Shown one piece after another: positions 54,461 through 58,776 of a stretch of DNA of 64,000 nt. The DNA is taken from NCBI RefSeq assembly GCF_000282495.1, contig NZ_AKJE01000076.1, forward strand, positions 1 through 64,000, in the 5' to 3' direction. The first letter of the stretch is position 1, and each line of letters begins with the position of its first letter. The notes beneath the pieces were generated by a model that worked only from the letters and a program-made list of their open reading frames with translations, ran no database searches and was not told where the DNA came from. Origin of the DNA: Pseudomonas sp. GM79 (lineage in GTDB: Bacteria; Pseudomonadota; Gammaproteobacteria; Pseudomonadales; Pseudomonadaceae). The translations under genes and the position numbers were made by a program.

Positions 54461-54511
54461 GATCGTTCCCATGCTCCCGCGTGGGAATGCATCCGTGACG
54501 CTCCGCGTCAC
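54461..54511. repeat. Palindromic repeat GATCGTTCCC...GTGGGAATGC...GTGACGCT
   Basis: Two small adjacent palindromes: GTTCCCATGCTCCCGCGTGGGAA and GTGACGCTCCGCGTCAC. They make up a known intergenic element style of the fluorescens group. It sits in the 587-bp non-coding gap 54317-54903, which also holds a single TGTAGGAGCTGCCGAAAGCTG arm (54548-54588). Confidence 0.75.
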
Positions 54512-54547
54512 ACCCAACACCCGCCCTACACCTGAAGAAACACATTC

Positions 54548-54588
54548 CTGTAGGAGCTGCCGAAAGCTGCGATCTTTTGATCTTGATG
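54548..54588. repeat. Single arm of the TGTAGGAGCTGCCGAAGGCTG family
   Basis: One unpaired copy of the element whose full inverted pair is at 33638-33730, with a single base change (AAAGCTG for AAGGCTG). Confidence 0.75.
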
Positions 54589-54673
54589 CCCTCAAACTTC
54601 TCGGACATTTCCTTCAAAACGCCGGGCTGTCCATGAACTAGGCAGCTTGGCCCCTCATCGATAACCTCTGTTC

Positions 54674-54847
54674 GTCACCGCAAAATCGGTGACTCGGACG
54701 TGCAAGTCCAGAATCGGCACACAATCGGTTATGGCTATTCATCGAGCGTTTTCTTATGCTCGCGAATCGTTATGGCGGCTGTGTATGGGAGACCTTCGGG
54801 TTTGCCGGTTTGCCGATTCCGGTCTTGCACACCTATACACAGCTGCC
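54674..54847 (+). promoter_or_regulatory. Highly structured leader upstream of the DUF6124 gene
   Basis: Three consecutive hairpins can be drawn: GTCACCG/CGGTGAC (54674-54693), CGAGC/GCTCG (54743-54762), and a long 13-bp stem GGCGGCTGTGTAT / ATACACAGCTGCC (54774-54847, one G-U pair) enclosing GACC/GGTC and CCGG/CCGG. The region ends 56 bases before the ATG at 54904. It contains an open frame in the coding direction, but the palindromic design argues for RNA function. It may be a regulatory leader or a separate small RNA. Confidence 0.5.
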
Positions 54848-54903
54848 ACCTCATTCGAAGCGCAAGCGAAACGGTGTTAGCTCCTAATATCGGTACTACT
54901 CAA

Positions 54904-55284
54904 ATGATCAAGCCAACACCGAATCCCCCAGAAAACCCAGCTACATCCCCTTACGAATCCTTCGATTCCAGAAAACTCCACGAAGCTGCCGAACGCGCCC
55001 TTGACCACCATTTCGCCCCGCCACCCAACGAAAAACCCAAGCGCAAAGGCAAACTCTTCACCGTCTCCCCCGACATCGACACCGAAGCCCTCCTGGCCAA
55101 CGCCTCAGAAGACCTGCTGTCCATCAGCGCCATCGCCGCCAACCTGGCCGACGACGTGGACGGTACACGGCGCTCCTTAGCCTTGGCGCTCAGCAGATTG
55201 GCGGATGGGGTCCGGTTATTGGTGGAGCGAGCGCTGGATCATATTGATTCGCCGAATCCGGCGGAGTATCGGGCGAAGGGGTAG
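54904..55284 (+). CDS. DUF6124-family protein
   Basis: A 126-residue hydrophilic protein starting MIKPTPNPPENPATSPYESF, with DSRKLHEAAERALDHHF and the middle segment FTVSPDIDTEALLANASEDL. This pattern (ERALDHY/H then VAPDxDTETLLA) is the signature of a Pseudomonas-restricted family, now DUF6124 (earlier grouped with DUF3077). The function is unknown, and several paralogues per genome are normal. The open frame continues upstream to 54700 across the structured leader; ATG 54904 is the family start. A terminator follows. Confidence 0.85.
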   Translation: MIKPTPNPPENPATSPYESFDSRKLHEAAERALDHHFAPPPNEKPKRKGKLFTVSPDIDTEALLANASEDLLSISAIAANLADDVDGTRRSLALALSRLADGVRLLVERALDHIDSPNPAEYRAKG

Positions 55285-55294
55285 CAAAAAATAC

Positions 55295-55321
55295 GAAGGG
55301 GACTTAACGTCCCCTTCTTTC
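55295..55321 (+). terminator. Terminator of the DUF6124 gene
   Basis: GAAGGGGAC / GTCCCCTTC with loop TTAAC and a short TTTC run, 11 bases past the stop codon. It also faces the 3' end of the convergent gene at 55358. Confidence 0.85.
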
Positions 55322-55357: not shown

Positions 55358-56734
55358 TTAAATACAGTGACTTGCCTTGATCGATTCTGTGCCTTGTGAT
55401 TCCAAGCGCTTCACGTTGTTGATACCCGCCTGGTCACCTTTGCCGGCAGACAATTGATAACAGGCCAACGCTCGAGACATATCTTTGGTTCCTAGGTCGC
55501 CACTCTCAAAAGAGGAAGCCAGAGAGTTGAGCGCATTCGTAGAACCCATGGAAACCGCGCGAATAAGCTCCTTTTCTGCCTGTTCGGGGTGCTGGCAAGG
55601 GCCGTCATAATCGGTGGAATTACCAGTACAGTAAAACATGGAAAGACTCAGCGCCCCGTCCGGCAGCGTCGTTGCTGCGGCCTTAAACAATGCCTCAAGC
55701 TTGCTGGTTTCCAATTGAGGTGCCATCTGCGAAAGACTCAAACTTGCAGCCGACAGACTCGCCCGTGGATCGCCCGACTCTGCAGCACATACGTAATTTT
55801 CCAAGGATGCTTCATACAGCTCCTTAGTCAACCGGTATTGTTCAAGTGCCCCTAAACCACCCAAACCCTCTGCGCGTTGATAACAGAAGTTCTCGGCGCG
55901 GCTCATTCCGGGTCTACCGGGTGCGACAAGCTCCTTCTCACTGATCGACCAATCCTCAATCCCCACCAGCGACCAGCACGACTTTTTAGCAAAGTTAAAA
56001 ATCTTGATGTTGCTGTTACCGGCTCGTTTATCCACAACGTTCATGTGAGTGTCGTCGACCGTTTCGATCTCAACCCCTTCAGTCTTGCCCTCCATCGCGG
56101 CCATCAACGGAAACGCCAAACTGGAGCCAGTCTCCGCAGTAATTTGCGGTTCAAATCGACCTGGATCCGAGGTCCGCTTCAACACCAATATTTTCACCGC
56201 CAGTGCGGTTAGGCGCTTCTGGGACTCCGCATTGGCGGAAAACGCTGGCAGAAACTGCGCGAAGTCTGAGGATGGACATGATCCACGCCCAATCACTGAG
56301 CCACTCCCATTGTCGGACGCAATGTTGTCCAGGAAGGCAGAGCGATCGCGACTCATACTCGCAACGCAATTGTTCACGGCTGTCACATACGCAGACGAGC
56401 CAGGCTCTGCTTCAAACGCATCGAGTAGGCAGTCTGTATCACGCAATTTGATCCAGGCCCGTTGAGACTCTTTAACCTTCGCCATATAGCCAGCAGCGAC
56501 AACGGGATCAGTCCGGTTGCCGCCCTCAAGCCGCACCATGAGTTGCTGATAGCTGATATTTAACTGCAAATCAGCAGCTGACTTCGAACTTACGGAGCAT
56601 CTCTCACCCTGAGAACTCGTAGTTATTTTGTCACAAGCGTCCTGCGCAAATACAACTTGTGCCAGCGAAGAAAAAATAACAACTAGCGTACAAAACGCGA
56701 TCATAGAAAAGCGATCAGTCATTGAACATGTCAT
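55358..56734 (-). CDS. Exported LprI-like/Sel1-like fusion protein of the VgrG cluster
   Basis: A 458-residue exported protein (signal IAFCTLVVIFSSLAQVVFAQ). The first part (about residues 30-150) is LprI/DUF1311-like with its cysteine pattern (CSVSSKSAADLQLNISYQQL, RAWIKLRDTDCLL). The second part is a close match to the Sel1-like protein at 62485, from SSDFAQFLPAFSANAESQ to IKASHC. LprI proteins are lysozyme inhibitors, so the gene plausibly protects the producer's own wall. The start is ATG 56734 after GGGAGG; ATG 56761 is a longer option. It is the last gene of the minus-strand cluster. Confidence 0.65.
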   Translation of the reverse strand: MTCSMTDRFSMIAFCTLVVIFSSLAQVVFAQDACDKITTSSQGERCSVSSKSAADLQLNISYQQLMVRLEGGNRTDPVVAAGYMAKVKESQRAWIKLRDTDCLLDAFEAEPGSSAYVTAVNNCVASMSRDRSAFLDNIASDNGSGSVIGRGSCPSSDFAQFLPAFSANAESQKRLTALAVKILVLKRTSDPGRFEPQITAETGSSLAFPLMAAMEGKTEGVEIETVDDTHMNVVDKRAGNSNIKIFNFAKKSCWSLVGIEDWSISEKELVAPGRPGMSRAENFCYQRAEGLGGLGALEQYRLTKELYEASLENYVCAAESGDPRASLSAASLSLSQMAPQLETSKLEALFKAAATTLPDGALSLSMFYCTGNSTDYDGPCQHPEQAEKELIRAVSMGSTNALNSLASSFESGDLGTKDMSRALACYQLSAGKGDQAGINNVKRLESQGTESIKASHCI

Positions 56735-56797
56735 ATAAGCCATAACCTCCCATAGAAACATCTACATCCCACTTCATCGCCGATGAAAAATTCACAC

Positions 56798-57934
56798 TCA
56801 TTCATCTGGCGCGATAGCGATCTTCAGAAGACAACCATGAAGATACACGACAGCTTCGCGACCGTTAATTTCTACTGGCGTGGGATTCTGAATTAAATCC
56901 TCATCGGCTCCACTGACTATCTTGGTGAGTGTCTTATCTAGGATATTGGCACGCCAGATTGTTCTGCTGCCATTCTTAAAATAAAAAACTGGACGCGACT
57001 TACTCCAAATCGGGGTGTAAATATACCAGTCATTTCCCGGTGTATCGACAGGTGCAATAGTTTCCTCTCCAGAGGAGTGCGAATAATACGCCTTTATAGG
57101 TCCAAACATTTCAACGGTACCGAATAGTAACCCGCCTATGGCGTGATCAGTGCTATTTGACCACTGCTGAATCAGCAAGCTAGTCTCCTTAGGTTGTGCA
57201 TTCGACCCCAGCTTGTAAACCATACCTTTCTGCTGCTTTCTAGTTATCTGTTCCCGATAGTAAAATGCCCCATCTAAAATCCCGGCGAACCTTTTGCCTT
57301 CGTCATTTCCGCCTAAACTTAGCGCGCCATCAAATCCGATATCTTTAGCAATGGTGTGGATAATGGGTTGTGCTATTGGATTTCTATCCACATATTCATA
57401 CAGATTCCCCCTATAAACAGACAACTGGGTATCGTAGTGCCCTTCGAAAATGATGACATGTAGCATCCCTGCCAACATTTCTGCGGAAAGGAGATAACGC
57501 TCAGTAACGCCCTTCTCGTTCGGAAGTCCCGCTAGCTCCACAGTTCTCCACGAGCGAAAACTTTGCGTATATATTTTGTCCGCCGGCAGAAGCTTGATAT
57601 CTTTTTCAGTAACAGGAGCGTTTTCCGGCAACGGTGTTAGAAAACGAATTTGTTGATCGTAAGCGTCTACCAAACACTCAGTTGATTCGCAGGTGTTGCG
57701 CTGCGTCTCAAGCCATTCACTTTCAATAATCTGGAACGTATGTAGATTTTTTAATAGTTTGAAAGCTGCGCTCAACTGTTCATCCAGAGTAGATAAATAC
57801 GGAGTTCCGCAGATTTTCCTCTCTACTTCTGTTGAGGCTTTGTGGCAGTCAAAGCTTGCCGAATACGTATAAGAGCTGAGCAGCAGTAGTGAAACAAGCG
57901 ACACTCCTGCAGAAAGGAATTTTAATTTTTTCAT
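56798..57934 (-). CDS. Exported protein with N-terminal LprI-like domain
   Basis: A 378-residue protein with a signal (FLSAGVSLVSLLLLSSYTYS). Directly after cleavage comes SFDCHKASTEVERKICGTPY and LSTLDEQLSAAFKLLKN, the LprI-type lysozyme-inhibitor motif, then CESTECLVDAYDQQIRFL. The remaining ~270 residues (VELAGLPNEKGVTERYLLSA and onward) have no recognised family. The start at ATG 57934 is a choice: no good ribosome site is visible, and an upstream start at 57991 is possible. The gene is AT-rich compared with the core genome, as are its neighbours. Confidence 0.6.
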   Translation of the reverse strand: MKKLKFLSAGVSLVSLLLLSSYTYSASFDCHKASTEVERKICGTPYLSTLDEQLSAAFKLLKNLHTFQIIESEWLETQRNTCESTECLVDAYDQQIRFLTPLPENAPVTEKDIKLLPADKIYTQSFRSWRTVELAGLPNEKGVTERYLLSAEMLAGMLHVIIFEGHYDTQLSVYRGNLYEYVDRNPIAQPIIHTIAKDIGFDGALSLGGNDEGKRFAGILDGAFYYREQITRKQQKGMVYKLGSNAQPKETSLLIQQWSNSTDHAIGGLLFGTVEMFGPIKAYYSHSSGEETIAPVDTPGNDWYIYTPIWSKSRPVFYFKNGSRTIWRANILDKTLTKIVSGADEDLIQNPTPVEINGREAVVYLHGCLLKIAIAPDE

Positions 57935-58029
57935 TAAACAACCATAAAACTTAAGGAAAACAACTAAGCCTCGTCTATTTATTAAAAACATAGAATTGGA
58001 CCGACGAGATTCTTACTTTTATTTTTCAT

Positions 58030-58776
58030 TTATTTTGATGGCGGAGCAACTGCGATTTGCCTGGCACGATCAAGGGTCAGACGAATCAAGCAACTAGCAG
58101 ATTGCTCACCATATATAGACTTTACGCACTCGAGATCCCGAAGTTTTATCCAAGCTCGTTGAACCTCACGAAACGCGGTTCTTTTTTCGTCATTTAAACG
58201 ATTTGCCTTATCATGGTAAGCCGAATTAAGCAGCGCATCCGCATCCGCCAAAACCAACTGATAAATATCGCTCTCTTGCACTATTTTTACTTGAGGCAAA
58301 CTCTGAGGTAGATCCGCATCCCAGTTATTCAATCCATTATTATCATCAACTCTTAGCTTGACCGTTTTATTATCAAACCACCCATATTGATTTTTTTCCT
58401 GCTCCGACTTGTAAAGCAACTCAATATAAATTGGGTCGCTTCCCCGTTGCGGATCATTTAGCAGAGTCTGCTTTAAAACACTGACATTTCCATTTCCCTC
58501 ATCCAGTTCGAAAGAAAAGCAAGGGGTTGGCCCAGGCTGAGCAGCTGACTTGCTAGCACGCATACAGTCCGCTCGAGTAGAGCCGCTCGGCTCATTACTT
58601 CCCGTTTCTACATCTTGAATTCTAATTAGTAGTCTCAAGTTAGGGGGCGCAGAATAGTCGGCTTGCAATATCTTCGCGGAATAGAACGGTTCTGCTTGAA
58701 CGGTAGCGACGCCAAATACAAAAAATGCTGAGCATGCCAAGAAAATTATATTTTTAACCACAGGACTTAATTCCAT
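58030..58776 (-). CDS. Exported protein with C-terminal LprI-like domain
   Basis: A 248-residue protein with a signal (NIIFLACSAFFVFGVATVQA). The C-terminal ~90 residues (ADALLNSAYHDKANRLNDEK, VQRAWIKLRDLECVKSIYGE, SCLIRLTLDRARQI) are LprI/DUF1311-like; the first part has no recognised family. Here the inhibitor-like domain is at the end, not the front. The direction and cluster position match its neighbours. Confidence 0.6.
   Translation of the reverse strand: MELSPVVKNIIFLACSAFFVFGVATVQAEPFYSAKILQADYSAPPNLRLLIRIQDVETGSNEPSGSTRADCMRASKSAAQPGPTPCFSFELDEGNGNVSVLKQTLLNDPQRGSDPIYIELLYKSEQEKNQYGWFDNKTVKLRVDDNNGLNNWDADLPQSLPQVKIVQESDIYQLVLADADALLNSAYHDKANRLNDEKRTAFREVQRAWIKLRDLECVKSIYGEQSASCLIRLTLDRARQIAVAPPSK

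Follow-up and report, generated by a model that had tools for sequence, protein, structure and literature searches.

The leader of a DUF6124 gene in Pseudomonas sp. GM79 is, judged by its sequence, a phage-type C4 antisense RNA. Leader and gene very probably form a self-silencing module of the C4 kind: the RNA would base-pair in the vicinity of the ribosome-binding site of its own transcript and hold translation down. In phages, C4 is a classic antisense RNA, described at single immunity loci. Here a known kind of RNA appears to be arranged in a new way, as an antisense system that is multicopy and copy-specific within one genus and placed mostly on small proteins of unassigned function. The locus lies in a contiguous stretch of 64,000 nucleotides, called the window. 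The assignment draws on family membership, structure, covariation, own-target matching and expansion in the genus.

Three hairpins in a row had been predicted directly before DUF6124, and they are present, all on the forward strand. Hairpin 1 (54674-54693, +) has a GTCACCG/CGGTGAC stem, a small hairpin (54696-54709, +) with a GGAC/GTCC stem carries the a1 target in its loop, and the large hairpin (54773-54848, +) represents the C4 fold. The last had been described as a 13-bp stem with inner pairing; the large stem and the inner pairing hold, while the closing stem (54773-54789/54832-54848) comprises 17 bp and encloses two inner hairpins. A spacer hairpin between a1b1 and C4 (54743-54762, +) is predicted by folding; by eye, sister copies often have a predicted hairpin of different sequence at this position. 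The leader (54660-54940) reaches a fold energy of -100.4 kcal/mol, far more stable than 200 dinucleotide-preserving shuffles (mean -75.0, sd 4.5; z -5.6), none of which was as stable as the real leader.

The C4 antisense RNA (RF01695) is matched at 54768-54853 (+) with 68.9 bits against a gathering cut-off of 45, an E value of 2.6e-11 over the 64-kb window and the full model length (1-87). It is the sole Rfam match at gathering thresholds in the whole window. Owing to this match and to the c4-a1b1-like region upstream, the RNA class is one already described, and the suggestion of an undescribed RNA gives way to Rfam C4 with its partner c4-a1b1 (RF03163), known from phages P1 and P7. Among the 36 C4 copies in the window's genome, standard pairs occupy 94.7% of the cells and 16 of 27 pairs have changes on both sides; either value was reached by 0 of 500 shuffles. 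Pairing falls to 31-41% when the partner is slid by 1-3 columns, and the GG at the stem start is invariant in the 36 copies. Covariation is thus present in the C4 structure, as it is at the target sites, and the original prediction of a structured riboregulator tied to the DUF6124 family agrees with the sequences.

Coding conservation was considered as the cause of the stems and rejected, as the leaders of orthologues differ by indels of lengths not divisible by three; the earlier view that the stems do not derive from coding sequence stands. A GTG-started frame (54700-55284) passes through C4. The b' loop, as parsed, varies from 8 to 12 nt in 41 orthologues and not in triplet steps, so a translated frame offers no explanation.

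The C4 of the window carries two antisense elements, the b' loop TTTGCCGATT (54809-54818, +) on the third C4 stem and, after the b' stem, the a' segment CTTGCAC (54824-54830, +). Upstream, a1 GTGCAAG (54700-54706, +) is complementary to a' (7-bp match, score 18) and b1 AATCGGCA (54712-54719, +) to b' (8-bp match, score 20). Both hairpins before C4, 54674-54693 and 54696-54709, belong to a target region at 54661-54714 (+). This region looks like c4-a1b1 by position and complementarity, yet by score it is not a member of RF03163 (cmscan 30.4 bits, below the gathering value of 46.7; E 1.7e-5 in a 1-kb search). Downstream, a' is matched by a2 GCAAG (54862-54866, +), a match of just 5 bp in this copy, and b' by b2 ATCGGTA (54889-54895, +; 7 bp, one G-U), located 9-15 nt before the DUF6124 start codon. 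A Shine-Dalgarno-like word was not found in the b2 region of the window copy, whose translation may therefore already be poor. Ranked among 36 regions, its own upstream region comes first for b', and the copy ranks 1/36 for summed upstream targets and overall; its own downstream target ranks 4/36.

A simple scan of the leader region matched no sigma-70 promoter. A possible -10 element of the leader promoter, TAACCT (54662-54667, +), was inferred by eye. Similarly, many of 33 copies show a TA-starting hexamer some 6 nt ahead of hairpin 1, in a view that leaves out loci L001, L005 and L064 and in which the window copy is misaligned. A further hairpin may enclose the start codon (54872-54878 with 54915-54921, by eye); its upstream half is not kept in the orthologue L128. 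Farther upstream, at about 54464-54590, lie two short palindromic stretches, which we take to resemble Pseudomonas extragenic repeats.

Throughout the genome, the a' and b' words read like keys that mostly fit their own targets. Matching was scored by setting a' and b' ungapped against the regions upstream and downstream of every C4 and taking the best complementarity, a measure distinct from affinity. Summed over the sites, the 36 copies average 72.7 on their own targets versus 52.1 (sd 6.1) on those of other copies; the own mean was reached by 0 of 10,000 permutations. Own targets come first in 31/36 C4s. In the other five the own targets rank second (L013, L027), third (L060), fifth (L061) and ninth (L064); parts of the targets are visibly gone in L060 and L064. 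Taken as single sites, the own a1 is first of 36 in 22 copies, b1 in 15, a2 in 11 and b2 in 21, and the own downstream sum ranks first in 25/36 copies. With reversed keys as a control, own targets score 53.2 and cross targets 50.1, 0 of 10,000 permutations are as high and 6/36 copies rank first, so that some of the signal, not most, reflects composition or hairpin symmetry instead of pairing. The limits of the loops differ between two parsers in 17/36 copies; the older limits underlie the 36-copy figures, the newer ones the two 30-copy sets and the orthologues.

Own targets are also first in 27 of the best-scoring 30 of 55 C4s from the related genome G049. With one C4 from each of 30 genomes, several of them sharing keys, they are first in 23/30 and among the top three in 30/30. 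All 36 combinations of a' and b' in the window's genome differ, with 24 distinct a' words and 36 distinct b' loops, and all combinations differ among the 30 C4s tested from G049. The proteins of L011 and L018 are 95% identical, their keys different. A foreign C4 equals or exceeds the own C4 on the downstream target in 58 of 1260 pairs, 45 of which fall on L060, L064, L027 and the window copy. Since each a'/b' word mostly fits its own targets best, the modules appear to be insulated from one another largely, not wholly.

Turnover of the keys can be followed at the window's own locus. Orthologues were defined as the 44 loci, from a set of 80, with the same upstream neighbour gene as the window; L207, L249 and L250 (no C4) and L210 (other a' word) were dropped, and the remaining 40 plus the window make 41. 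The a' word is identical in 41/41 orthologues, and the a1 word is constant as well in the orthologues of the 80-locus set, L210 excepted. The b' loops comprise 18 different ones. Matching was scored with one representative for each loop (n=18). Complementarity between b' and b1 is 16.9 for own and 12.5 for cross pairs (own first in 10/18), between b' and b2 18.4 and 11.9 (own first in 13/18), and each own score was reached by 0 of 20,000 permutations. Hence b1 and b2, as far as the sequences indicate, tend to change along with b' at the orthologous locus. An alignment of four orthologues has the b'/b2 words CCTGGA/TCCAGG in L127 and L128 and CCTGAA/TTCAGG in L129; L128 and L215 of the 80-locus set, which have the same b' core, are apparently one record. 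The matching is imperfect in L230, L212 and L215, where some sites pair only with a G-U.

The window's genome holds 36 C4 matches, all above the cut-off, and 29 DUF6124 matches. A DUF6124 gene follows on the same strand within less than 600 nt in 22/36 C4s, and a C4 lies upstream of 22/29 DUF6124 genes. Four further C4s (L002, L015, L026, L061) are followed by the contig end after an ORF start that is DUF6124-like by eye, and the C4 of L064 is a broken copy. The C4 of L003 precedes a DUF3077 protein, a domain that comes up in the open-access literature in a paper on furfural tolerance. In L001 (1645-2163), the top-scoring C4 of the genome stands before the gene of a Bro-N antirepressor-like protein (PF02498, E 6e-11; PHROGs anti-repressor Ant), the classical phage arrangement. 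Small proteins without a Pfam match lie 3' of the C4s of L005, L009, L020 and L062, and the proteins 3' of C4 in L030, L063 and L065 resemble that of L020. The four proteins of L020, L030, L063 and L065 are 85-94% identical in six pairs, and their keys are different; the L020 protein contains a run of repeated DVL units. The proteins of L008, L016 and L024 are 89-93% identical, their C4 scaffolds only 55-69%, a contrast that reshuffling or conversion of genes and leaders might have produced.

Four DUF6124 genes lacking a C4 match have a c4-a1b1 match directly upstream, with 30.3-48.5 bits: L031 (1273-1324, +), L032 (1283-1335, +), L041 (1285-1337, +) and L036 (1914-1967, -). These might be orphan targets for another C4 in trans, or C4 deletions. 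A PrrF sRNA (RF00444, 158 bits) is found at L047 (1279-1426, -; contig C66), beside or within a DUF6124 region lacking C4.

The DUF6124 protein of the window (54904-55284, +) has 126 aa and matches PF19619 with 86.2 bits (cut-off 27). AlphaFold2 predicts a two-helix hairpin (about residues 61-110) as the only confident part (mean pLDDT 76.7, pTM 0.47). A Foldseek search with the model against the PDB and viral models gave no match at E 0.001 or better, NCBIfam has no family for the four proteins scanned, and PHROGs gave a weak match to a family of unassigned function (E 0.016). A terminator-like hairpin follows the gene (55295-55317, +; scan). Three such sites occur in the 1.8-kb stretch versus 2.2 expected in shuffles, close enough to make this hairpin weak evidence of a terminator. 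On the reverse strand at 55358-58776, the 3' neighbour is an LprI-like protein (PF07007), and the next two ORFs (56798-57991 and 58030-58776) resemble it by eye. No prophage is apparent among the neighbouring genes inspected at the window locus.

Of 59 genomes of the genus Pseudomonas, 54 contain C4 and 47 contain DUF6124. The highest number in one genome is at least 54 matches for C4 and 43 for DUF6124. The two counts correlate (Spearman 0.88, 59 genomes); DUF6124 without C4 is found in 0/59 genomes, C4 without DUF6124 in 7/59. In a sample of 273 genomes of the class from other genera, C4 was found in 17, with at least 1-6 matches each, and DUF6124 in 0. The original prediction had called DUF6124 multicopy and specific to Pseudomonas, and both attributes are supported by these samples. 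A C4 lies upstream in 76 of the 80 Pseudomonas DUF6124 loci whose proteins are closest to that of the window; the other four are L207, L249, L250 and L193, the last with 150 nt of upstream sequence only. Downstream ORFs outside Pseudomonas were taken from 16 of the 17 C4 genomes (L175 was not counted). Three of eight scanned are phage regulators, namely AntA (L162), Rha (L165) and Bro-N (L174); the other five are small and have no Pfam match.

A tblastn search of phage and plasmid records gave no match to DUF6124. Five relatives occur on viral contigs, all no more than about 1.2 kb from the end of the contig, which suggests host flanks; C4 is present at four of the five and not in L270. The leader DNA matched four phage records, and C4 was found in both of the two inspected. 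Phage vB_Pae_U10, which encodes an integrase, an excisionase and a primase, has C4 (80.5 bits) and c4-a1b1 (56.0 bits) above the cut-offs. Phage phiAH14b has C4 with 89.0 bits and c4-a1b1 below the cut-off (28.8 bits), besides AlpA and Rha-like genes. The presence of C4 in these two phages supports a phage origin for the C4 RNA, not for DUF6124, as read from the sequences.

Transcription, processing, silencing and termination of the C4-DUF6124 modules, as self-repression after the start of transcription, we infer from phages P1 and P4. One promoter would give a single transcript with a1b1, the C4 RNA and the DUF6124 mRNA. C4 would be cut out of this transcript, presumably by RNase P as in phage P1, to an expected length of about 77 nt. 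Through its a' segment and b' loop it would bind a2/b2 immediately ahead of the DUF6124 start codon; in most sister copies the Shine-Dalgarno word is part of b2. This pairing would block translation and probably favour premature termination of transcription. The upstream a1b1 would serve as second target, either a decoy or an early-termination site like P4 seqA. The DUF6124 protein would be made only once the target mRNA outruns C4. The window module is one among roughly three dozen C4 units in the genome, which differ in their a'/b' words.

A P4-like control is possible, though doubtful: C4 would mainly pair with a1b1 in the nascent leader and cause early termination, downstream pairing being minor, especially in the window copy. 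The target-RNA-target layout corresponds to seqA-CI-seqC of phage P4, whose CI RNA pairs with one upstream and one downstream site and terminates transcription (excerpts of PMC4825925), and the window copy matches better upstream (7 and 8 bp) than downstream (5 and 7 bp). Over the 36 copies, on the other hand, b2 matching is at least as good as b1 matching (mean own scores 19.7 vs 17.3). Moreover, b2 overlaps a Shine-Dalgarno-like word in 22/34 copies (L060 and L064 left out), which fits a translation block.

It is unlikely that the window copy is a decaying remnant, in which the RNA folds and the translated gene is no longer controlled. Its a2/b2 sites are weak, the missing Shine-Dalgarno-like word points the same way, and the sister copies L060 and L064 are clearly broken. 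Against decay, dN/dS of DUF6124 is 0.10-0.38 versus 14 relatives, so the gene of the window lineage is by this measure under purifying selection, and L196, L245 and L256, which share the b' word of the window copy, keep the match to b1 and b2. An IsrK-like action, in which the leader RNA would open the mRNA in trans instead of closing it, as IsrK activates anrP in Salmonella (excerpts of PMC4825925), is highly improbable: several sister copies have isrK-like matches that overlap with a1b1 (L020 47.4 bits, L004 43.5; cut-off 50), but the window region has no isrK (RF01394) match up to E 5, and the covarying parts are C4 keys and targets, fitting occlusion of the start region.

With self-silencing as the preferred reading, a genome with 36 C4s (55 matches in a relative), most of them keyed to their own mRNA, would be a natural parallel set of antisense RNAs. 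Such a set could be used to measure how the specificities of RNAs drift apart and how small a change suffices to insulate paralogues. The C4 leader provides a handle on the regulation of DUF6124, and the findings suggest a search for matched targets next to the Acinetobacter C4-like RNAs. A more speculative and rather unlikely scenario would be that in Pseudomonas a phage immunity RNA has become a chromosomal repertoire of dozens of largely insulated locks. The turnover of b keys would then reflect selection for new specificities, as in heteroimmune phages; a resident C4 would silence any module that arrives with its key, newly keyed modules would be expressed on entry, and DUF6124 would recognise or respond to incoming DNA.

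In the passages of open-access main texts that were covered, nothing was found on a link between C4 and DUF6124 or on copy-specific keys, and no open-access paper on DUF6124 was found. The C4 class is listed in an excerpt of Weinberg et al. (2010; PMC2864571), and PMC5320573 cites that work for the presence of C4 in Pseudomonadales. In phage P1, C4 occludes the ribosome-binding site, a' determines specificity and RNase P yields the mature RNA, according to PMC5320573. C4, icd and ant of P1 are treated in a section of PMC8198154, the action of C4 on ant mRNA in one of PMC12197685.

The closest known system is C4 of P1/P7. The window C4 shares its RNA fold, above the curated cut-off, the complementarity of a'/b' to a and b sites, and the position in the leader of the presumed target mRNA, with a b site at the presumed ribosome-binding region (excerpt of PMC5320573). 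Unlike P1/P7 C4, it precedes DUF6124 and not icd/ant, and in contrast to immI no antirepressor operon lies behind it, the sister L001 being the copy that precedes a Bro-N antirepressor-like gene. Also, about three dozen genomic copies with different keys replace the one immunity locus. The CI RNA of P4 is similar in layout, which alone was compared, as a processed leader RNA pairing with one site on either side of itself (excerpt of PMC4825925); it differs in acting by transcription termination on replication genes. IsrK of Gifsy-1 (RF01394) is likewise a leader RNA, that of an antirepressor operon, and is followed by a processed RNA (same excerpt); it resembles the a1b1 regions of sister copies through the overlapping isrK-like matches; it differs as an activator, and the window copy shows no match to it. 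C4 and isrK occur in one transcription unit in Burkholderia (excerpt of PMC4603805). Acinetobacter baumannii has 21 C4-like RNAs in one genome, with open targets (excerpt of PMC5320573). Its Group 1 resembles the Pseudomonas set in the number of copies and in the varying a' loop. These RNAs are described there as sRNAs, whereas each C4 of the window's genome lies before a gene, in most cases with matching sites on either side of the RNA.
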